In this document: positions 54,026 to 64,000 of the stretch, piece by piece
Numbering within the stretch: the stretch's first letter is position 1
Layout of the letters: every line of letters begins with the position of its first letter
Origin: Lysobacter silvisoli
Lineage (GTDB): Bacteria > Pseudomonadota > Gammaproteobacteria > Xanthomonadales > Xanthomonadaceae
Assembly (NCBI RefSeq): GCF_003382365.1
Contig: NZ_QTSU01000001.1
Location: 1,240,001-1,304,000 of the forward strand
Length of the DNA stretch: 64,000 bases
Reading direction: 5' to 3'
Translations under genes and position numbers: made by a program
Notes under the pieces: model-generated
What the model saw: the letters and a program-made list of their open reading frames with translations, nothing else
Databases searched by the model: none
What the model was told of the DNA's origin: nothing

Positions 54026-54386
54026 CGGTCACCCCGTTTCGGTTTGCGGCGGCCGCGGCGGCCGCCTTGTCTGTCTGGTTCAACGCCCGAATCCCGCGTT
54101 CGGGGTTGCGCGCACGGCCGCGCATGCGCGGCGGCAGCGGCCACCTTAGCGAAGGATTGCGGCGCCGCGTGCGCGGCGCGCGGCCGCGGTTCCCTCCTCC
54201 TTAATGGCGCTTGCGGGCACGCTTGAGTTGTCGAATCGGAAAATGTGATGAATTCGACCATTTATGAGCATTTACCCCCTGCCAGAGCGGCTTCCGACCC
54301 TTCCGGCCGCGCGCATGATCGCCGACAGCCCGTGCCGCGCCGCGGGCCCACCGCACTCAACCACGACCCCTGGGGAGCCACACGCA
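54026..54386. other. Divergent control region between VIT/vWA gene and protease gene
   Basis: About 360 bases with no supported gene. The part at 54225-54275 is clearly AT-richer (GAAAATGTGATGAATTCGAC near 54238) and may hold promoters of both divergent genes. The right part has GGGGAG before the protease start. A short CGGTCA hairpin near 54030 is too weak to call. Confidence 0.45.
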
Positions 54387-55772
54387 ATGACACGTAAAGG
54401 CATGCTTCGCACCACCCTGCTGCTAGGTATTTCCTGCGCCGTCGGCACGGTTTCTGCCGCGGAAATGTCGTCCGCGCCGGTGACCGCACGGCCCATGGCC
54501 AGCGCCCTGGGCGGCGCCGATTTCGCCACCGGCGGCAAAGTCCGCGCGCAGCGCGCGGTCGACCTGGGCCTGCCCGATGCGGCCAGCCTGGCCGCGGTGC
54601 GCACCCGCCGCGCCGACCAATACAAGCACGGCCAGCCGCTGGAAATCGGCTTCGCCCGCAACGTGGCGCGCAGCAAGGTCGACCTGACCACGCTGGACTG
54701 GGAAGCCCTGCCCGACGGTTCGCACGGCGCCCGCTTCACCCTGAGTTCGACCCACGCCGTGGCCCTGCGCGCGGGCCTGGTCCTGCGCCCGGCGCGCAAG
54801 TCCGGCGGCGATCCGGCGGCGGTGACCCTGCGCTTCGCCGGCAACGACGGCCGCGTGTTCACCGACAACGGCCGCAGCTACAGCGGCGATGAAGCCGGCT
54901 GGTCGCCGACCGTGGCGGGCGACACCCTGACCGTGGAAATCGTGCTCGCCCCCGGCCAGCGCCCGGACGGCTTCAGCCTGAGCGTGCCGCAGCTCTCGCA
55001 CCTGGACGTGGACCCGGCCTCGAACACCCGCGACCTGTCCAAGGCCAGCGGCATCGGCGCCAGCGGCGCCTGCGAGAAGGACATCGTCTGCCGGGTCAAT
55101 CCGACCGCGGGCTTCCTGGCCGCGAGCAAGGCCGTGGCGCGCATGGTCTACACGTCCAAGGGCAAGTCCTACCTGTGCACGGGCACCCTGCTCAACAACA
55201 ACAATTCGCCCAAGCGCCAGCTGTTCTGGACCGCCGCGCATTGCATCAGCACGCAGAAGGTCGCCGACACCCTGCAGACGTACTGGTTCTTCGACGCCAC
55301 CGCCTGCAATAACGACACCGCCAACCCGGGCGCGGTCACCCTGACCGGCGGCGCCTATCTGCGCCATGCCAACACCACCCGCGACACCGCGCTGCTGGAG
55401 CTCAAGACCGCTCCGCCGACCGGCGCGTTCTACGCGGCCTGGAACAGCAGCGCCATCGCCGCCACCGGCACCGCGATCGAGGGTATCCACCACCCCGCCG
55501 GCGATCTGAAGAAGTACTCGCTGGGTTCGGTGACCAGCCTGTCCTACACCCTGGACGGCAAGTCGCCGCTGACCCGCGTGGTCTGGAACACCGGCGTGAC
55601 CGAGGGTGGCTCCTCGGGCTCGGCGTTGTTCACCATCGCCGGCAGCGGCGACTACCAGCTGCGCGGCGGCCTGTACGGCGGCACCTCGTTCTGCTCGGCG
55701 CCCAGCGATCCGGACGGCTACTCGCAGCTCAGCGGCGTGTGGTCGAGCATCTCGACCTACTTCGGCCCGTAA
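54387..55772 (+). CDS. Secreted lysyl-endopeptidase-like serine protease
   Basis: A 461-residue protein: signal peptide (LLLGISCAVGTVSA, to about residue 25), a propeptide of about 190 residues and a trypsin-fold mature domain from about GIGASGACEKDIVC. The triad is His285 (FWTAAHCIS), Asp333 (TTRDTALLEL) and Ser410 (GGSSGSAL). The mature start with CEKDIVCRVN, the KSYLCTGTLLNN and GLYGGTSFC segments are typical of bacterial lysyl endopeptidases (Achromobacter protease I / Lysobacter Lys-C type), which cut after Lys. The specificity is inferred from family resemblance. GGGGAG precedes the ATG by seven bases. Fits an organism that lives by extracellular proteolysis. Confidence 0.87.
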   Translation: MTRKGMLRTTLLLGISCAVGTVSAAEMSSAPVTARPMASALGGADFATGGKVRAQRAVDLGLPDAASLAAVRTRRADQYKHGQPLEIGFARNVARSKVDLTTLDWEALPDGSHGARFTLSSTHAVALRAGLVLRPARKSGGDPAAVTLRFAGNDGRVFTDNGRSYSGDEAGWSPTVAGDTLTVEIVLAPGQRPDGFSLSVPQLSHLDVDPASNTRDLSKASGIGASGACEKDIVCRVNPTAGFLAASKAVARMVYTSKGKSYLCTGTLLNNNNSPKRQLFWTAAHCISTQKVADTLQTYWFFDATACNNDTANPGAVTLTGGAYLRHANTTRDTALLELKTAPPTGAFYAAWNSSAIAATGTAIEGIHHPAGDLKKYSLGSVTSLSYTLDGKSPLTRVVWNTGVTEGGSSGSALFTIAGSGDYQLRGGLYGGTSFCSAPSDPDGYSQLSGVWSSISTYFGP

Positions 55773-55949: not shown

Positions 55950-57332
55950 TCAATGCATCGGCTCGCCCGATGCCGCAGCGCCTTCCTCGATGCCCTGCGC
56001 CAGCAAATACTCCCCCAGCACATGGGTCACGAAGCCCGACAGGCCCTGAAACCCCAGCGCCTGCGCGTGGGTCTCCGGATCGGGCAGCATCGGACCGTAG
56101 CGATGTTCGTACCAGCGCTGCAGGTCCGGGTAACCGATACCGAAATCTTCGGCGGACAGTTGCTTGAGCCAGGTCTCGCCATAGCGCTGGCGAATCGCGG
56201 CGACGTTGGCGACGGCGTCGGCGTAGCGTCCGTTGGCTTTCAAGGCGGCCAGCAGATAGGCATCCACGCCGGCCATGGCCTGCAAGGACAGCTGCTGCAC
56301 GCGCGCGTCCATCTGCAACAGCGCCAGCCAATCCGCATCGCTCAACCCCTGCTGCGCGCGCCAGGCGCGCAGATCCTCGCTGCTGCGCAGGCCGTTCTTG
56401 GCTGCGATCCGGAACACGGCCGCCTTCAGGTCCTGGGCGCCGGGCGGCGCCGCCGCGCGGCTCTCCCGGGCGATCTTCATCAGTAGCGCCTCGCGCAGCA
56501 GCGCGTCGCGCAGCGGCGAGGCCGCGCGCGCGTGCTCGACCACTTCGGCATCGATCGGCGCGCTGGACAGCGCCGCCTGCAGCGACTCGCTGGCCACGCG
56601 CGCTTCCTGCGACTGGGTCAGGTCGCGCCACAGGCCGGTTTGCTCCAGCACGAAGCCGGGCTCGCGCGGCTCGTCCGCGCCATCCTCCAGCGCCGCCAGA
56701 TGCCGCAGCAGCGCGACGGCATCCTGGGCCTTGGCGTCGGGTTCGGCGGCGACGTCGCGCAGCGCCGCCAGCACGTCCTCGCCCAGGCCGAGGCCCAATG
56801 CATAAGCATAGGTGTCGGCCCAACTGCGCACGTTGTAATGCTGCGACTTGGCGTAGGCGCACAGCCGGTCGTGCTGCTCGGCCGAGATACGGCCCGCTTG
56901 ACGCAACCCGTCCAGACCGAAGCGCAGGCTGACCATGGCCGTGGACAGGGAGCGATAGCCCTCTTCCTGGGTGGCGTGCGCCACCGCGACCTCGTCGTCG
57001 TCCTCGATGACCAGATCGCGATAGGCCTCGAACACCCGGCCCAGGCCGCGCATGCCGAAGCCGTGCAGCTCCGCCGCGCGCAAGGCGCCCATGCTGGAGG
57101 CGCCATAGACCGCGATCCCCTGTTCGATCGCGTACAGGATTTCCTTGTGCCAGACCGCGGGCACCTGTTCGAAGAAACCGTCGACGATCGCCACCCGGTC
57201 GCCTCGGCGCGCGCGGGTCCGCACCAGGGTGTAGAGATCGCCCATGGCGATGGGATCCAGGTACTCCGCCGGCAGGATCCGCTCGGCCTGGTCGCGCGGC
57301 AAGGATGGGCCCAGATAGACGTAGGTGGCCAT
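55950..57332 (-). CDS. TfuA-like protein, putative YcaO partner for thioamidation
   Basis: A 460-residue protein. Residues 1-210 are a TfuA core: MATYVYLGPSLPRDQAERIL, then a nucleotide-like DRVAIVDGFFEQVPAVWHKEI, GASSMGALRAAELHGFGM and VAVAHATQEEGYRSLSTAMVSLR. The remaining 250 residues are helical and of no family I recognise. TfuA proteins accompany YcaO enzymes in forming thioamide backbones (thioviridamide-type RiPPs, thioglycine of methyl-coenzyme M reductase), possibly by helping sulfur delivery. Its ATG overlaps the YcaO stop by four bases (ATGA), so the two are translationally coupled. It is the last gene of the operon. Confidence 0.85.
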   Translation of the reverse strand: MATYVYLGPSLPRDQAERILPAEYLDPIAMGDLYTLVRTRARRGDRVAIVDGFFEQVPAVWHKEILYAIEQGIAVYGASSMGALRAAELHGFGMRGLGRVFEAYRDLVIEDDDEVAVAHATQEEGYRSLSTAMVSLRFGLDGLRQAGRISAEQHDRLCAYAKSQHYNVRSWADTYAYALGLGLGEDVLAALRDVAAEPDAKAQDAVALLRHLAALEDGADEPREPGFVLEQTGLWRDLTQSQEARVASESLQAALSSAPIDAEVVEHARAASPLRDALLREALLMKIARESRAAAPPGAQDLKAAVFRIAAKNGLRSSEDLRAWRAQQGLSDADWLALLQMDARVQQLSLQAMAGVDAYLLAALKANGRYADAVANVAAIRQRYGETWLKQLSAEDFGIGYPDLQRWYEHRYGPMLPDPETHAQALGFQGLSGFVTHVLGEYLLAQGIEEGAAASGEPMH

Positions 57333-58666
57333 CAGCGCGGCGCTCCACCGCGGGCGAGCCGGTCGCGCTGCGGCACCCGAATCGCGCGGCCGTGCGACAG
57401 GGCGCCGGCCAGGCCCGGCACCACCATGCGCACCACCGACACGCCGATCTCCGGTTTGCGTAGGTCCACGGCCACCGCGTTGTCGATGCCGGCCGCGCGC
57501 AGGGTGTCGAGCAGGTAGCGGATGTCGCCGTTGAAGCTCGAGGTCGCCAGGTTGCGCCGCTCGCGGAAGTCCAGGCTGGCCGGCGAGCGCGCCCAGGCCT
57601 CGCGATAGCTCTTGAGCGCGTTGGGATTGCCGCCTGAACGGTACTGCCCGGGCGCGATGTCGTCGCGCGAGCCGCTGATGTAGGTCAGGCGGCTCTGCAC
57701 CGCCTCGGTCACCGCGCGCAGCATGGCGATGCCGGGGTTGAGATGGCAGCCGTAGCCGTTGAAATGCGGCAGCGTGCGCCAGCGCAACGCATCGTCGGCA
57801 TCGACGATGGAGCAGCCGTACACGGGGATGCCCAGGTCCGAGGTCAGGTCGAAGGCGGCGACCGATACGCCGGCGGCATCGAGCTTGTCGATCACCGCGC
57901 GGCAGTCCGCGTCGTCGATGGTCTCGATGCGCACGCGGCGCGCGCTGTCGAAGCTGCGCATCGCCTCGCCCGCGTAGTGGATCGCGTCGCGCTCGATGAG
58001 CTCCTTGAGCGCGTGGACGATCGCTTCCAGCACTTCGTTGCCGCCAGCCAGGCCGTTGCTGGACTGCATGAACGTGGTCGCCGAGCCGCGTTGGCCGCTG
58101 CCGACGTAGTTGGTGCTCACGCTCTCCAGCGGCAGCCAGCAGGGCCCGTCCTGCAGCAGATCGTAGCCCTCGACCCAGGCGATGGGCTGGTCCGCGCGCG
58201 GCGGGCTGTCCTCGTAGTGGCTGAGCCGCTGGTATTGCACAATCGGCGCCTTGCGCCCGAACGACCAGGGCGAATCCACGCGTACGGGCCGCTCGATGTG
58301 CTCCGCGTGCCAGCACTCCACCGACTCCATCAGCGCCGAGGCCTGCGCCGCGGCATGGGTCAGGCCCTTGCCTTGCGAAGTGGCCAGGCCGCGGGAATTG
58401 GGCCGGATCGCGACCCACACCGGCACCCCCACCACGTCCAGCCCGGTCACATTGGCCAGCCGGGTCAGGCCGATCCGCGGCGCCAGCGCCCGCAAGCGCC
58501 GCACCGTGTCCTGCGGATCGCAGGCGCGCTGGGTGCCATCCCAGAACGACTTCGCCAAGCTCAGGTCTTGGCCGAACACGCGGATCGGCGCGGCCGCCGG
58601 CGCGCCAGCGTTCGAGACCTCGGGCGCGGTCGCCGACGGCGCGGCTGCGTGCATGCGCGGCTCCAT
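57332..58666 (-). CDS. YcaO-domain protein (RiPP backbone-modifying ATPase)
   Basis: A 444-residue YcaO. Visible family features: CDPQDTVRRLRALAPRIGLTRLANVTGLD (start), SQGKGLTHAAAQASALMESVECWHAEH with the ATP-binding glutamates, SSNGLAGGNEVLEAIVHALKELIERDAIHYAGE with the second E-x-x-E/R set, and LVRAVTEAVQSRLTYISGSRDD-like C-terminal motifs. YcaO enzymes activate amide oxygens with ATP to give azolines, thioamides or amidines. A C-terminal PxPxP motif seen in many azoline-forming YcaOs is absent (ends in DRLARGGAPR), and the partner is TfuA, so thioamidation is favoured. It starts 15 bases after the ABC ATPase stop. Confidence 0.9.
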   Translation of the reverse strand: MEPRMHAAAPSATAPEVSNAGAPAAAPIRVFGQDLSLAKSFWDGTQRACDPQDTVRRLRALAPRIGLTRLANVTGLDVVGVPVWVAIRPNSRGLATSQGKGLTHAAAQASALMESVECWHAEHIERPVRVDSPWSFGRKAPIVQYQRLSHYEDSPPRADQPIAWVEGYDLLQDGPCWLPLESVSTNYVGSGQRGSATTFMQSSNGLAGGNEVLEAIVHALKELIERDAIHYAGEAMRSFDSARRVRIETIDDADCRAVIDKLDAAGVSVAAFDLTSDLGIPVYGCSIVDADDALRWRTLPHFNGYGCHLNPGIAMLRAVTEAVQSRLTYISGSRDDIAPGQYRSGGNPNALKSYREAWARSPASLDFRERRNLATSSFNGDIRYLLDTLRAAGIDNAVAVDLRKPEIGVSVVRMVVPGLAGALSHGRAIRVPQRDRLARGGAPR

Positions 58667-58681
58667 GCGTCTGCGCCGGCC

Positions 58682-59380
<699 letters not shown>

Positions 59381-59406
59381 GACTCCCCCCGAAACCGATC
59401 GTTCGA

Positions 59407-60486
59407 CTAGATGAAATTGACGTTGGCGCGCATGCCCGGCAGGACCCGCGGGTCCTTGCCGACGATCACGATCTGCACCTGCAGCGTGCCCTTGGCCCGA
59501 TCCGCGCTGGGCACGATGCGCTGCACCTTGCCCTGCATCTGGGTCTGCTCGTCCGAGTACAGGCGGAAGGTCACCGACTGGCCGACCTTGACGTTCTGAA
59601 TCTGCTGTTCGCCCACGTCGACCACCAGGATCAGCGAATCCATGTCGACGATGGTGCAGATGCCGGTGCGGGTGAAGCTGCCGCCCGCGCTCATCGGCGC
59701 CACCAGCTCGCCAACCTGCGAATTGCGCTCGACCACGATGCCGGAGAACGGCGCGCGGATGGTGTAGTTGCCCAGCAGGCTGCGCTGCTGGCGCACCCGC
59801 ACCTCGCCCAGGTCGAGCTCGGCGACGGTGCTGGCCAGCGAGGTGCTGGCGACGATGCTGGCGGCCTTCTTCTCGTCCACGCGCGCGCGCGAGGTGTAGT
59901 GGCTCTTTTCCAGTTCCAGCTCGCGCCGGTACTCGCTCTCGGCCTGGTCCTTGCGCGCCTGTTCGCGCGCGACCATGGAGCGCAGCGAAAACAGTTCCTT
60001 CTCGGCCAGTTGCAGGTCTTTTTCGGCCAGGTCGGAATTGAGCACGCCCACGACCTGGCCGCGCTCGACGTAGTCGCCCACGTCCACCGGCACCTCGGTG
60101 ACGATGCCGGCGACGCGGGTGGACACGGTGGCCTGGCGCCGGGCGACGACGAAGCCCTGTGCCTGCAGCACCACGTTGGCCTCGCCGATCGCCGCGGCGG
60201 CGCCAGCTTGGGCCCGCGGCGAACCGCCGGCGGCGCCGGCCGCACCCACCGCGCTAGCGGCGGCAGCGGCACCGCCCGCCGTGTCATCGCCGCGGCCGAC
60301 CATGAAGTAGGCGAAGACCAGCGTCTGCGCCACCAGCAGGCCGGCCAGGCCCAGCACCCAGCCGGACGGACGCTTGCCGCGCGCCGGCGCCGGCTCGTCG
60401 CGCACCAGCGACAGCCCCCTGATTTTTTCGATCCGCGCTTTGGCGGCGCTGTTCATCTCTTCCATGTCGGACTCGGCTGTGCTCAT
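59407..60486 (-). CDS. HlyD/MacA-type periplasmic adaptor
   Basis: A 359-residue membrane-fusion protein. A single N-terminal anchor (WVLGLAGLLVAQTLVFAYFMVG, about residues 43-65) is followed by a Gly/Ala linker. The lipoyl half-motifs are GFVVARRQATVSTRVAGIVTEVPVDVGDYVERGQVVGVLN and NYTIRAPFSGIVVERNSQVGELV, with a helical hairpin between. The beta-barrel end has MQGKVQRIVPSADRAKGTLQVQI. Such adaptors link an inner-membrane exporter to an outer-membrane channel. Its start overlaps the permease stop by four bases. No TolC-like gene is in the window. Confidence 0.92.
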   Translation of the reverse strand: MSTAESDMEEMNSAAKARIEKIRGLSLVRDEPAPARGKRPSGWVLGLAGLLVAQTLVFAYFMVGRGDDTAGGAAAAASAVGAAGAAGGSPRAQAGAAAAIGEANVVLQAQGFVVARRQATVSTRVAGIVTEVPVDVGDYVERGQVVGVLNSDLAEKDLQLAEKELFSLRSMVAREQARKDQAESEYRRELELEKSHYTSRARVDEKKAASIVASTSLASTVAELDLGEVRVRQQRSLLGNYTIRAPFSGIVVERNSQVGELVAPMSAGGSFTRTGICTIVDMDSLILVVDVGEQQIQNVKVGQSVTFRLYSDEQTQMQGKVQRIVPSADRAKGTLQVQIVIVGKDPRVLPGMRANVNFI

Positions 60487-61724
60487 GCGCTGCGGCTCGC
60501 GGGCGTCTTGCGGTAGCTGGGAATCGCCAGGCTGGAGAAGGCGCCGCCGATCAGGCCCACCGTGATGGCCAAGCCCAGGGCGTTCAACAGCACGCTCCAG
60601 TCGACCTTCATGGTGTACTCGACGGTGGCGTAGTACTTGCCGACGATGGTGGCCGCGCGACCGTCGACGAACAGGTACATGAGCAAGGTGCCCAGCAAGG
60701 CGCCGGTGACCGTCAGCAGCAGGGTTTCCAGCAGCACCGCCAGGCGGATCGCCGCCGGCGCGAAGCCCAGCATCATCAGCACGCTCAGGTTGCGCTTGCG
60801 CCCTTCGATGACCATGAGCATGGTGTTGAGCACGCCGGCGAAGGTGCCGATGGTCAGCACGAAGGCCAGCGGCCAGCCCAGGTACATGATGACGTTGCTG
60901 GTGTCCTCGACCTGGTCGCGGTACAGGTCGCGCTGGGTCAGCACGTCGACCTGGAAGCGCGGGTCGGCCTCGACGAAGCTGCGCAGGCCGTCCAGGGTCG
61001 CGCCCGGCTCCAGCCAGGCGTACAGCGACTGGTATTGGTTGTGGCGGTCGAACGCGGTCTGCACCGATTGCACGTCCGCGTAGTACTCGCTCTCCAGCAG
61101 GCTGTTGGACATGGTGAACACGCCCACCACCGTCCAGGTCTTGCCGCTGAGCACGATCTTGTTGCCCAGCTCCAGGCCGCTGACCCGCTCGGCCAGCTTG
61201 CGGCCCACGATCATTTCGTAGACGCCGGGGCGGAACACCCGCCCTTCGACCAGCTTGAAGCCCTGGCGCTCGCGCAGCAGCAAGCCTTCGGGACGCATGC
61301 CGCGCAAGGTCGAGTTGATGCGCTTGGCGAAGCCCTTGGCGCGGCGGCTGACCGAGACCACGACCTCAGGCGAGACCTTGGAGGTCGTGCTGAGCATGGA
61401 CAAGCCGGGAGCGCGTTCCAGCAGCACCGCCTCGGCCGGATCGATGTCGCTTTCGATCTCGATCGGCGCCTGCCGCCCGAGCATGACCGCCATGCGGTCC
61501 GAGCCGGCGCTGTCGCCGGCGGCGTAGAAGCCGCGCGACATGGCCAGGAACGAGCACAGCACGATCACCGACAGCATCACGCAGCCGATGGTGGTGGCGC
61601 TGGCCCAGCGTGCGCGCAGCGCGTTGCCGATGGCCACCGGGATCAGCGCCGCGAACTGCGACAGCGTGCCCACGTGTTCGGCGCTCACCGGGCCGCTGCC
61701 CGCGGAGGGTTGGGATGGGCTCAT
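60483..61724 (-). CDS. ABC transporter permease, FtsX/MacB type (second of two)
   Basis: A 413-residue permease: helix 1 at about residues 44-62 (IGCVMLSVIVLCSFLAM), a periplasmic domain of about 220 residues, and three C-terminal helices (WPLAFVLTIGTFAGVLNTMLMVIE, LAVLLETLLLTVTGALLGTLLMYLF, VLLNALGLAITVGLIGGAFSSLA). The EGRKRNLSVLMMLGFA coupling segment after the second helix is typical of FtsX/MacB permeases. Overlaps the preceding permease by four bases and the adaptor by four bases. Confidence 0.92.
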   Translation of the reverse strand: MSPSQPSAGSGPVSAEHVGTLSQFAALIPVAIGNALRARWASATTIGCVMLSVIVLCSFLAMSRGFYAAGDSAGSDRMAVMLGRQAPIEIESDIDPAEAVLLERAPGLSMLSTTSKVSPEVVVSVSRRAKGFAKRINSTLRGMRPEGLLLRERQGFKLVEGRVFRPGVYEMIVGRKLAERVSGLELGNKIVLSGKTWTVVGVFTMSNSLLESEYYADVQSVQTAFDRHNQYQSLYAWLEPGATLDGLRSFVEADPRFQVDVLTQRDLYRDQVEDTSNVIMYLGWPLAFVLTIGTFAGVLNTMLMVIEGRKRNLSVLMMLGFAPAAIRLAVLLETLLLTVTGALLGTLLMYLFVDGRAATIVGKYYATVEYTMKVDWSVLLNALGLAITVGLIGGAFSSLAIPSYRKTPASRSA

Positions 61725-62884
61725 ATCGCTTCCTCCGCCATGGCTTCGACCGGCTTGGTTCGCAATGCGATGTACGCGGGAATCGCCGCGGCGATCAGGC
61801 TCAGCACGATGCCGATGACCAGGGCCTGGCCCATGACCGGAACCGGCAGATACAGATGCGGCAGGATCTCGGGGTAGCGCGAGGTCACCGCCCAGTTGAA
61901 GGCGAAGGCGACGAGCATGCCCAGCGCCGCGCCGGCCAGGACCACCATCATGGTCTGGCCGACCACAATGCGCAGGATGCGGGCGTTGGAGTAACCGATC
62001 ACGCGCATGATGCCCAGGTCGCGCCGGCGCTGGCGCACGCCCAGCGCCATGCCGCTGCTGACCATCAGCATCAGGGCGCAGAAGGTCACCACGACCACCA
62101 TCTCGATCATCGACACGATGTCGCCGAACTGTGCGAAGAACTCGTTGTGGAACACCTGGTCGGAGCTGGTGTACGAAGGCCAGGCGCTGGTCTCCAGCGC
62201 GGTGTCGATGCGCTGCGAGGCGTCGTCGGCGGTGACGTGCGGCTTGAGCGTGATCACGAAGCTGCCGACGGTGTCCTTCCAGATGTCGCGGTTCTCGTTG
62301 AGGAAGTCGTAGTGGGTGACCGCGAAGTTGCGGCTGCCCGCGCCCTTGGTCGAATCGAAGATGCCGGCCACGATGTGATTCCAGGCGCGCTCGCCATGCG
62401 GCGGCCGGAACAGCAGGCTCTGCAGCGGAATCGAGTCGCCCTTCTTCCAGCCGAACTTGTCGGCGATGTCGGCGCTGACCAGGATCGCGCGCTTGTCGGT
62501 GAGGAAGGTCTTGCGGGTGTCGGCGTCCATGACCATGTCGGGATGGGTGTCCAGCCAGGTCTGCGGCTCCACCGCGAAGCTCATGAACATGTTCGACTGT
62601 TCGCGGTAGTACAGGCCGATCCAGGTCGCGTAACTGATCGTCTCCAGCCCCTCGACCTTGCGGATGGTGTCGATCGACGACAGCGGCAGCACCTGCATCG
62701 CGCCGGCGTCGCTCATCGCCATCAGCCGGCGCGAGGCGATGGAGTTGTCGCCGCCGTTCATGGAATAGCGCAAGGCGCCGAGGATGCCGAAAGTGCAAAA
62801 CGCCAGGGCGACGGCCGCGGTCAGCAACAGCGAGCGCAGCTTGAAAAACCTGTGGTACCGCCAGATGAGGTTCAACTCGTTCAT
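61721..62884 (-). CDS. ABC transporter permease, FtsX/MacB type (first of two)
   Basis: A 387-residue permease with the same topology: N-terminal helix (LLLTAAVALAFCTFGILGALR), periplasmic domain of about 220 residues, then helices MIEMVVVVTFCALMLMVSSGMALG, IVVGQTMMVVLAGAALGMLVAFAF and ALVIGIVLSLIAAAIPAYIALR. The RQRRRDLGIMRVIGYSNARI segment is the coupling helix. Two different permeases with one ATPase suggest a heterodimer. It overlaps the stop of the thiopeptide-type gene by four bases. Confidence 0.92.
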   Translation of the reverse strand: MNELNLIWRYHRFFKLRSLLLTAAVALAFCTFGILGALRYSMNGGDNSIASRRLMAMSDAGAMQVLPLSSIDTIRKVEGLETISYATWIGLYYREQSNMFMSFAVEPQTWLDTHPDMVMDADTRKTFLTDKRAILVSADIADKFGWKKGDSIPLQSLLFRPPHGERAWNHIVAGIFDSTKGAGSRNFAVTHYDFLNENRDIWKDTVGSFVITLKPHVTADDASQRIDTALETSAWPSYTSSDQVFHNEFFAQFGDIVSMIEMVVVVTFCALMLMVSSGMALGVRQRRRDLGIMRVIGYSNARILRIVVGQTMMVVLAGAALGMLVAFAFNWAVTSRYPEILPHLYLPVPVMGQALVIGIVLSLIAAAIPAYIALRTKPVEAMAEEAI

Positions 62885-63852
62885 GCCACCGTGTCCTGTT
62901 GCTGCAAAGCGTTAGCGGCACCGCCGAGGATGCGCGCCAGTAGTAGCTCACCTGCCGCCGGCAGGCCCAGGCGGTTGTTCAACATGTGCATCTGCGAGCC
63001 GACGATGCCGAGCACGGCGTTGCGGCACATCGCATCGCCGACGGTCGCGCGGCCGTCGTAGGGCGCCAGCAGCCGCCCTTGCGCATGCAATTCCCTCAGG
63101 TGCAGCGCCAGCTTCTGCACGCCGCGTGCCCAGACCGCATGCGCGCTGCGGCTGTCCCAGCCCGCCGCCGCTTCCCGCTCCAGGCGCAGCAACAGTTGCA
63201 GTTGTTCATCGCTGGCGCGCGGCGCGTCCGCTTCCAGCGCCTCGCGGCCGACCATCGGCGTCCACAGCGCGCCATAGCGCTCGAAATAGCCGCCCAGCGC
63301 CGCCAGATCTTCGCCGCAGGCCAGCACCGCCGCGGCCATCAGCGCGAAGGCCGCCGACAGGCGCGCGCTGCGGCTGCCTTGCGTGGCCTTACACAGGCTC
63401 AGCGCCAGCCGCGAGGACAGCTCGAACAGCCCCTCGTTGGCGGCCATGGCCTGCTCGCCGCCGTAGCGCAGCCATTCGGGCTCGTAGGCGATGGCCGCCA
63501 CGGTGCCCTCGGCGTACCAGGGCAGGTCCTCCGGCGCCACCGGGCGGCCGTCGAAGGCGTGTCCGCGGTAGTACTCCTCGCGTGTGGGGGGCCGGGCCGA
63601 CAGATAAGGCTCGACGCCCTCGGCCAGCACCGCCCGGGCCGCGGCCTCGTCGGCCGCGATCGGGCCGGCCAGACGCACGCGCAGGTGCGGCCCGCCTTCC
63701 CAGTAGCGGATGAAGAACCATTGCCGCAGCGCACCGTCGGCGCTCCAGCGCTGGATCGCCGGCGCCAGGCGCTCGTGCAGATAGCGCTCGCTGGCGACCG
63801 GGTCGGACAGGAACACATGCAGCGAGAGCCAATCGCGCGGCGCGGCGTCCAT
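62881..63852 (-). CDS. Stand-alone thiopeptide-type biosynthesis protein (lantibiotic dehydratase C-terminal domain)
   Basis: A 323-residue protein. The start RDWLSLHVFLSDPVASERYLHERLAPAIQRWSADGALRQWFFIRYWEGGPHLRVRL is the classic opening of the lantibiotic-dehydratase C-terminal (SpaB_C, thiopeptide-type) domain: W-x-x-x-x-V-F...F-I-R-Y...G-P-H-L-R-V-R. EEYYRGHAF, EPEWLRYGGEQAMAANEGLFELSS and the MHMLNNRLG end also fit. Full LanB enzymes have a long glutamylation domain before this; alone, the domain occurs in thiopeptide, PEARL-related and other RiPP loci, where it eliminates, cyclises or acts on a modified peptide. TGATG overlap with the upstream gene; ATG 63852 chosen for the family start. 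Confidence 0.85.
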   Translation of the reverse strand: MDAAPRDWLSLHVFLSDPVASERYLHERLAPAIQRWSADGALRQWFFIRYWEGGPHLRVRLAGPIAADEAAARAVLAEGVEPYLSARPPTREEYYRGHAFDGRPVAPEDLPWYAEGTVAAIAYEPEWLRYGGEQAMAANEGLFELSSRLALSLCKATQGSRSARLSAAFALMAAAVLACGEDLAALGGYFERYGALWTPMVGREALEADAPRASDEQLQLLLRLEREAAAGWDSRSAHAVWARGVQKLALHLRELHAQGRLLAPYDGRATVGDAMCRNAVLGIVGSQMHMLNNRLGLPAAGELLLARILGGAANALQQQDTVA

Positions 63853-63998
63853 CAGCACAGCTCCATGGTCGGATTGGCCGAGCGCGAGTGCCCGCACAGC
63901 ACCAGGTAGACGGCCTGGCCGCGTAGCGCGAGCTCGGACTCCAGCCGGGCCTCGCGCATCATCTTGGTCGGCCGCGCATACAGGTCGTGGGCGGCGGC
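63852..63998 (-). CDS. 3' end of an unidentified gene of the RiPP operon
   Basis: The visible 48 codons read ...AAAHDLYARPTKMMREARLESE, then ...QAVYLVLCGHSRSANPTMELC and TGA at 63854-63852. The stop overlaps the start of the thiopeptide-type gene (TGATG), so it is the next upstream member of the operon. The fragment is too short for a family call. A SagB/nitroreductase-like, ThiF-like or dehydratase N-terminal protein would all fit the neighbourhood. It ends in Cys like the precursors of thioamitides, but nothing else about it looks like a precursor. Confidence 0.6.
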   Translation of the reverse strand, partial: AAAHDLYARPTKMMREARLESELALRGQAVYLVLCGHSRSANPTMELC

Positions 63999-64000
63999 GG

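Follow-up and report, generated by a model that had tools for sequence, protein, structure and literature searches.

A Lysobacter operon predicted to make a thioamidated thiopeptide with sulfur from its own carrier module

What is modified by the YcaO-TfuA pair encoded near one end of a 64,000-nucleotide stretch of the Lysobacter silvisoli genome, and where would its sulfur come from? The stretch, called the window here, comprises bases 1240001-1304000 of contig NZ_QTSU01000001.1 in a genome of 4.54 Mb. The operon holding the pair crosses the window end, and the next 30 kb were included in the analysis; numbers above 64000 are window-equivalent positions, to which 1240000 is added to give the contig position. 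A first-pass annotation of the window had proposed an operon for a ribosomally synthesized and post-translationally modified peptide (RiPP), carrying YcaO and TfuA of thioamide type along with a MacB-like exporter, in a combination outside any named family. The genes and families found support the operon, the pair and the exporter. The undescribed class does not stand: the genes past the window end make a thiopeptide (pyritide) cluster, ruling out a RiPP of unknown class, and thioamidated thiopeptides are already known from sections of PMC8120280. We put the probability at roughly 80% that the locus makes a thioamidated thiopeptide, as predicted from its sequence, with sulfur supplied by the cluster's own carrier system.

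The operon consists of 18 genes spanning 22 kb, all on the minus strand, from 77989 down to 55950. Seven genes lie complete in the window and an eighth ends in it; these form the downstream half of the set, and ten further genes lie wholly outside the window. The tight packing described in the first pass (ATGA-type overlaps or gaps below 30 bases) was confirmed, with four-base overlaps at three junctions (60483-60486, 61721-61724 and 62881-62884), a one-base overlap between the TfuA and YcaO genes, and gaps of 15 and 26 bases at the remaining two in-window junctions. All of the proteins it had listed are likewise present: a YcaO without the PxPxP tail, a 460-residue TfuA-like protein, a stand-alone thiopeptide-type protein, two FtsX permeases, an HlyD adaptor and an ATPase. 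Five similar clusters were found, in Lysobacter sp. cf310, Aquimonas, Massilia, Bowmanella and Teredinibacter. Because gene order is largely conserved in these five genomes and the ratio of nonsynonymous to synonymous divergence between the two Lysobacter clusters is 0.07-0.32 in all 16 of the 18 genes compared (the ABC-2 ATPase and SagB were left out), the cluster is far from a chance assembly. Its features are as follows.

55950..57332, minus strand: TfuA, 460 residues (PF07812, 151 bits; solved TfuA 6xp8)
57332..58666, minus strand: thioamide-type YcaO (YcaO2), 444 residues (PF02624, 261 bits)
58682..59380, minus strand: exporter ATPase of LolD/MacB/DarD type (NCBIfam LolD 211 bits and DarD 201 bits, both below cut-off)
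59407..60486, minus strand: HlyD/MacA-type periplasmic adaptor (TIGR01730, 111 bits, cut-off 94.9; PF13437, 69 bits)
60483..61724, minus strand: FtsX/MacB-type permease 2 (MacB_PCD 49.5 bits, FtsX 37.8 bits)
61721..62884, minus strand: FtsX/MacB-type permease 1 (FtsX 56.6 bits; MacB_PCD 27 bits, just at cut-off)
62881..63858, minus strand: stand-alone LanB C-domain (PF14028, 141 bits; GTG start, alternatives ATG 63852 and GTG 63897)
63852-65327, minus strand: dehydrogenase-like protein, 491 residues (Nitroreductase PF00881, 20.4 bits; start at contig position 1305327, outside the window)
65324-67321, minus strand: azoline YcaO (TIGR03604, 272.6 bits, cut-off 219; leader-binding TIGR03882, 71 bits, cut-off 36.9)
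67318-69129, minus strand: F-type partner, ocin-ThiF-like (weak TIGR03693 match, 19.6 bits)
69126-72977, minus strand: LanB, 1283 residues (TbtB-like front, TbtD/PbtD-like rear)
72986-73741, minus strand: ABC-2 permease (PF01061, 65 bits)
73738-74544, minus strand: ABC ATPase of the ABC-2 system (open reading frame call)
74638-74659: stem-loop after the precursor stop codon (hairpin z -4.17)
74683-74871 (L004:683-871), minus strand: precursor, 62 residues (NF033400 thiazolyl_B, 49.6 bits)
75035-75559, minus strand: DUF2141 protein (PF09912, 72 bits)
75589-76491, minus strand: SagB-type dehydrogenase (TIGR03605, 133 bits, cut-off 78.4)
76478-77665, minus strand: E1 with C-terminal rhodanese, MoeZ type (PF00899, 280 bits; PF00581, 67.6 bits)
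77669-77989, minus strand: sulfur carrier (ThiS PF02597, 46.6 bits, cut-off 22.5)

The precursor, which the first pass had expected to the right of position 64000, reads MNNDFDFDSLDLASLNIEGMEVVTLKEAMALPETGA-SSAVSICSSCSSCGSSSCFNDVATVE, with AAGGAG preceding its ATG. Precursors from all six clusters exceed the thiazolyl_B cut-off of 30 bits (homologues 49.9-65.8), and the precursor family is therefore one already catalogued. Each combines a thiopeptide-type leader with a Ser/Cys-rich core; identical in the six aligned sequences are ALPETGASS, Ser37, 38, 41, 45, 47, 51 and 53, Cys46 and 49, and Gly50, and every one has Cys, Ser or Thr at position 43. A scan of both strands for GAS[SC] followed by a Ser/Cys-rich stretch, covering 11 loci (L003, L004, L010-L013 and L015-L019, without L040-L043), found one leader-bearing open reading frame per cluster and no additional precursor, the other lines being unrelated frames.

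Assignment of the class rests most clearly on the LanB protein, whose front part by sequence comparison resembles TbtB and whose rear resembles the pyridine synthases TbtD and PbtD. When five LanB proteins were combined into a profile, its front part matched TbtB (6ec7, E 1.2e-39) and, with E 1.5e-28, the goadsporin protein 9jhq, and its last ~380 residues matched TbtD (5wa3, E 4.2e-28) and PbtD; residues 906-1270 of the single sequence aligned to nearly the full length of TbtD (E 2.5e-21). One Tyr, replaced by Phe in PbtD chain 8ejz and by Ala in chain 8ejy, is invariant in the five aligned LanB proteins (Y1239 in a 1286-residue frame) and, compared by eye, present in Teredinibacter; together with the TbtD match it marks the protein as a likely [4+2] pyridine synthase. 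Glutamylation domain and pyridine synthase are fused in one chain in five of the six clusters, and Teredinibacter encodes the two halves as separate genes of 902 and 379 residues, the smaller protein scoring 196 bits against the TbtD/PbtD model.

For the stand-alone LanB C-domain the most likely role is a TbtC-like elimination of glutamate, as the usual partner of a thiopeptide LanB. A profile of five homologues matched TsrE (E 9e-11), the dehydratase 5ehk (2e-10) and NisB (5e-7), and more weakly PbtD (5e-5) and TbtD (9e-4); the pieces aligned to 5ehk and NisB, each weak alone, include a His-containing stretch near NRL. Elimination would be the natural role of this domain because LanB already holds a TbtD-like domain. 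The reverse assignment, with LanB as a full NisB-type dehydratase and the stand-alone domain as the cycloaddition enzyme, is disfavored, as the stronger matches run the opposite way. The azoline YcaO, whose C-terminus reads ...NPYPHNFP, exceeds the cut-offs of both its cyclodehydratase and leader-binding models. With glutamylation (TbtB-like half), elimination (PF14028 above cut-off, 5ehk/NisB-type C-domain) and pyridine synthesis all provided for, the cluster is therefore very probably a thiopeptide (pyritide) cluster, as judged by its precursor family, cyclodehydratase, pyridine synthase and set of LanB proteins. Because the leader is ejected as the pyridine forms, the lack of a protease gene among the operon's 18 genes fits. 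SagB-type dehydrogenase genes are present in both Lysobacter clusters and were not seen in the stretches examined of the other four.

An adjacent thioamide-type YcaO and TfuA were found in six of six clusters. YcaO2 ends ...GGAPR, and its best NCBIfam match is TIGR03266 (McrA-glycine thioamidation) at 233 bits, below the cut-off of 365. A separate YcaO of uL16 type was considered and rejected, as the genome holds only two YcaO genes, both in the cluster. In TfuA, residues 5-213 form the TfuA-type region (6xp8 aligned over residues 4-213, E 1.5e-28), followed by a C-terminal extension of ~240 residues with no family match. TfuA proteins of like length (about 440-465 residues) occur in the relatives and at one further locus, L083, and part of the Teredinibacter extension gives a weak match of 17.6 bits, against a cut-off of 180, to the putative peptide maturation protein TIGR04500.

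A passage of PMC13063428 states that YcaOs forming thioamides tend, outside high-sulfide settings, to rely on thiocarboxylated homologues of ThiS, from which the hydrolase TfuA delivers sulfide. A ThiS/MoaD-like carrier, a rhodanese and an E1 were present in all six clusters, and in L. silvisoli the cluster carrier and E1 are extra copies, the genome having four other ThiS matches and two other E1 matches elsewhere. The sulfur module directly precedes YcaO-TfuA in Aquimonas, Massilia and Bowmanella; in the two Lysobacter clusters its genes occupy the far upstream end of the operon, and in Teredinibacter YcaO-TfuA adjoins DUF2141 on the strand opposite to the precursor.

The carriers come in two designs. 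The L. silvisoli carrier ends ...LPAIAGG followed by a stop codon, and that of cf310 also stops at GG. In Aquimonas, Bowmanella, Teredinibacter and Massilia, carrier, rhodanese and E1 form one frame, with AGG or SGG internal. All four of these clusters, and neither Lysobacter genome, have a JAMM protease (Prok-JAB PF14464): the four score 67-79 bits (cut-off 25), and whole-genome searches of both Lysobacter genomes found no Prok-JAB above cut-off (best 21.5 and 22 bits). The JAMM gene lies just upstream of the fusion in three genomes, and in Teredinibacter JAMM, ThiS, rhodanese and E1 form a single 660-residue frame. The JAMM motif HxH-x7-S-x2-D is readable in all four proteins. The layout of a capped-carrier relay (QbsD/PtmS1 type) is thus found in the four relatives and not in L. 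silvisoli. Aquimonas has a second Prok-JAB protein above cut-off elsewhere in its genome (41 bits).

As a control, 398 genomes drawn from the phylum were surveyed; 14 contained TfuA, in 20 loci including that of the window, and the other 19 (from 13 genomes) were examined with ~8 kb on each side. YcaO was found at all 19, a nearby E1 at three (L083, L084 and L100) and JAMM at none, and a carrier was detected by profile at one (L083), although the small profiles used (4-6 sequences) may miss distant carriers; tblastn gave a weaker carrier match at L100, and both of these carriers end in GG. Pooling these with the six clusters, JAMM accompanies an internal GG in four of four cases and a free GG in none of four (Fisher two-sided 0.029; 0.067 for the six clusters alone), figures that overstate independence, since the sequences are related by descent, and for which L083 and L100 were searched only within 16 kb. 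The pattern points to a protease-released sulfur carrier feeding TfuA and YcaO.

L083, in a genome of the same class, combines TfuA-YcaO with a free-GG carrier, an E1-rhodanese, ABC exporter genes and a second, azole-type YcaO, and no LanB or JAMM match was found within its 16 kb; its product is perhaps a thioamidated linear azole peptide. L100 and L084 are further TfuA-YcaO pairs with a MoeZ-like E1 nearby, and L100 has an open reading frame ending SAVAGG.

From the observed gene content, conservation, sequence-based domain assignments, precursor and GG/JAMM pattern we infer a pathway, and with it every reaction, the order of the reactions, the thioamide site, the export route and any activity of the product. 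The F-type partner would bind the precursor leader, the azoline YcaO would cyclize Cys and some Ser/Thr of the core, and a dehydrogenase would oxidize the rings to azoles. The TbtB-like half of LanB would glutamylate Ser, the stand-alone C-domain would eliminate glutamate to give dehydroalanines, and the TbtD-like half would join two of these to form a pyridine, which closes the ring and releases the leader. YcaO2 and TfuA would exchange a backbone oxygen for sulfur, taken from a carrier that is charged at its C-terminal GG by E1 and rhodanese and hydrolyzed by TfuA. In the four relatives, where the carrier leads the rhodanese-E1 frame, JAMM would cut after GG; in Lysobacter the carrier would be made ready-cut. 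The product may then leave through the ABC-2 pump and the MacAB-like pump. We also lean, with some reserve, toward a more specific proposal: that a Gram-negative family of thioamidated thiopeptides receives its backbone sulfur from a dedicated ubiquitin-like relay, produced as a polyprotein (the 660-residue frame of Teredinibacter), with JAMM separate in three genomes and a pre-trimmed carrier without JAMM in Lysobacter, such that the chain would cut itself to free GG, charge the carrier and hand sulfur to TfuA-YcaO.

Several observations weigh against this reading. For the LanB C-terminus, the thioamide YcaO and TfuA, the score against the nearest NCBIfam model is under the equivalog cut-off (LanB scores 199.8 bits against the pyridine synthase model NF045556, cut-off 325), so the exact chemistry may differ. 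The F-type partner was matched only weakly (19.6 bits), and the 491-residue dehydrogenase scores below the PF00881 cut-off of 23.5 both here and in cf310 (19.3 bits), although its Aquimonas and Bowmanella homologues reach 27 and 34 bits. The top solved match of the stand-alone C-domain is TsrE rather than 5ehk or NisB, and the domain weakly matches PbtD and TbtD as well. The core sequence alone gives neither the thioamide site nor the ring size. Massilia, counted here as one cluster, has its LanB and TfuA genes on separate contigs, the one with TfuA starting inside the HlyD adaptor, so that their linkage is inferred; its eliminase and permease genes were not seen, the stretch ending before that of the eliminase.

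Could the product instead be a linear azole- and dehydroalanine-containing peptide of goadsporin type that carries a thioamide, with a LanB C-domain that forms no pyridine? The resemblance of the LanB front to 9jhq and the sub-threshold pyridine synthase score both speak for it. Goadsporin-type pathways need only one LanB C-domain, however, and two of different kinds occur in all five checkable clusters (the Massilia stretch is too short); TbtD is matched over nearly its full length and the precursors fall in the thiazolylpeptide family, making a linear product highly improbable. It is nearly as hard to credit that YcaO2-TfuA thioamidates a protein of the producer, such as a ribosomal protein for self-protection. 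Passages in PMC13063428 and PMC5589413 describe YcaO-dependent thioamidation of uL16 in E. coli and McrA in methanogens, the nearest model to YcaO2 is the McrA one, and no self-resistance gene was recognized in the cluster; yet the pair stands with peptide-modifying genes in six of six clusters (the Massilia contig begins inside the exporter), TfuA is reportedly absent near suspected uL16-modifying YcaOs in the same part of PMC13063428, and thioamidated thiopeptides have been reported in PMC8120280, in the sections cited above.

The sulfur module raises alternatives of its own. That carrier, E1 and rhodanese are mere neighbors serving molybdopterin or thiamin synthesis would agree with their close match to MoeB/MoeZ models and their position at the far upstream end of both Lysobacter operons. 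The module nevertheless recurs in all six clusters in two arrangements, in three clusters directly before YcaO-TfuA, the genome has other ThiS and E1 genes, and an E1 recurs near YcaO-TfuA at three of the 19 other TfuA loci; we give this explanation scarcely any weight. Less easily set aside, and still unlikely, is that JAMM strips adducts from the carrier in the manner of Mec+, or that translation of the carrier begins at an internal start, the fusion being incidental: enzymes of both kinds fall within Prok-JAB, start codons are available inside the frame ahead of the carrier, and carrier cleavage is itself a prediction. Against it stand the split of JAMM between internal-GG and free-GG carriers (L083 and L100 within 16 kb), the continuation of the frame past GG even from an internal start, and the need of capped carriers for a protease such as QbsD, as described in part of PMC6006322. 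A thioamidated thiopeptide supplied by a dedicated carrier is the reading we retain.

Two exporters are encoded in the operon, one of ABC-2 type and one MacAB-like; the ATPase, FtsX permeases and adaptor of the latter would be three components of a MacAB-TolC type tripartite exporter, and may secrete the product across both membranes. No outer-membrane channel gene was seen among the 18 operon genes, the rest of the genome not having been searched for one. The strong hairpin after the precursor (z -4.17 here, -1.57 in cf310, and -4.08, -2.17, -8.02 and -2.78 in the other relatives) might act as a partial terminator that gives more precursor than enzyme. Rfam matched nothing in the window or in L004. 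A DUF2141 protein, with an N-terminus that is hydrophobic by eye, is encoded near the precursor in all six clusters and is a candidate immunity or export partner. Convergent with TfuA, the open reading frame at 54264-55772 (plus strand) resembles by eye a secreted protease of trypsin/lysyl-endopeptidase type; it probably lies outside the operon, because its homologue in cf310 sits on the opposite side of the cluster.

Near full-length LanB was found in three of 297 genomes of the family (L. silvisoli, cf310 and G067), in two of the 18 same-genus genomes listed, and in draws of 369 genomes from the class and 398 from the phylum only in L. silvisoli itself. One further genome of the family set, G176, was not counted (LanB 26% identical, partial, one stop). 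A scan of genome contigs with the azoline YcaO gave 21 loci, five of which are this cluster; the other 16, at 23-29% YcaO identity, were not counted as family, and seven of them (L020-L025 and L034) compared with the 18 cluster proteins matched only at YcaO and, in L022, at a generic ABC ATPase. A plasmid search with LanB returned 12 records, all below 60% identity, and one with a short ATPase stretch no match. LanB identity to L. silvisoli is 73% in cf310, 47% in Massilia, 39% in Bowmanella and 34% in Aquimonas. Aquimonas shares its family with Lysobacter, and Massilia belongs to the betaproteobacteria; the order of identities departs from species relationships and suggests horizontal transfer. 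Relative to cf310 (L015, L011), synonymous divergence is 0.77-1.19 for the middle block, from the ABC-2 permease to HlyD, and 0.30-0.60 for TfuA, YcaO2, the ATPase, DUF2141, precursor, E1 and carrier; the four flanking genes give 0.25-0.50 in three cases and 0.94 in one. Recombination may have exchanged the genes of the middle block.

Characterized thiopeptides come mainly from Gram-positive bacteria. A family conserved among Gram-negatives, Lysobacter and Massilia included, would be a new source of them, built to exit a two-membrane cell. The sulfur-carrier module is the most unusual part of the cluster. It offers a natural experiment on sulfur supply to peptide thioamides, with one pathway, two carrier designs and a protease seen only where the design needs it, and it makes the ThiS-TfuA-YcaO sulfur route directly testable within one operon. 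The ingredients have appeared in print separately, as thioamidated thiopeptides, proteobacterial thiopeptide TfuA clusters, ThiS/ThiF or MoaD/MoeB near TfuA, and JAMM-processed carriers (portions of PMC8120280, PMC5589413, PMC6511847, PMC9576775 and PMC6006322). Among the matches listed in the open-licence literature, no description of this cluster or of a thiopeptide, TfuA and JAMM/carrier combination was found; the relevant part of a shipworm study that includes strain Bs02 (T. waterburyi) counts thiopeptide clusters as a class and discusses none individually.

The cluster resembles those for thiomuracin (tbt) and GE2270A (pbt) in its precursor family, YcaO with leader-binding part, dehydrogenase-like proteins, glutamylation and elimination domains, and pyridine synthase. 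It differs from them in its Gram-negative hosts, a Ser-rich core with 3-5 Cys, the fusion of glutamylation and pyridine synthase domains in five of six clusters, and a MacAB-like exporter besides the ABC-2 one. The MacAB-like exporter resembles that of darobactin, whose gene set likewise includes an ATPase (DarD, 201 bits here), an adaptor and an FtsX-type permease, although two FtsX permeases are found here and the DarD cut-off of 375 is not reached. Saalfelduracin, thiopeptin and Sch 18640, named in PMC8120280, also combine thiopeptide genes with an extra YcaO-TfuA, in hosts of a different phylum, and the putative thiopeptide TfuA clusters in Proteobacteria reported there are of the same general kind as ours. 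That account assigns cycloaddition to an extra LanB C-domain and names ThiS in a figure legend; its main text does not contain "Lysobacter" or "Xanthomon", and its section 13 does not discuss the sulfur module, JAMM or LanB fusion. With the thioquinolobactin (QbsD), pdt and PtmS1-S4 systems, covered in part of PMC6006322, four members of the cluster family share a JAMM protease and a carrier that continues past GG. Those systems feed small-molecule thiocarboxylates, whereas here the carrier is linked to TfuA-YcaO, its cap is a whole rhodanese-E1 and, in Teredinibacter, the JAMM protease is part of the same frame.

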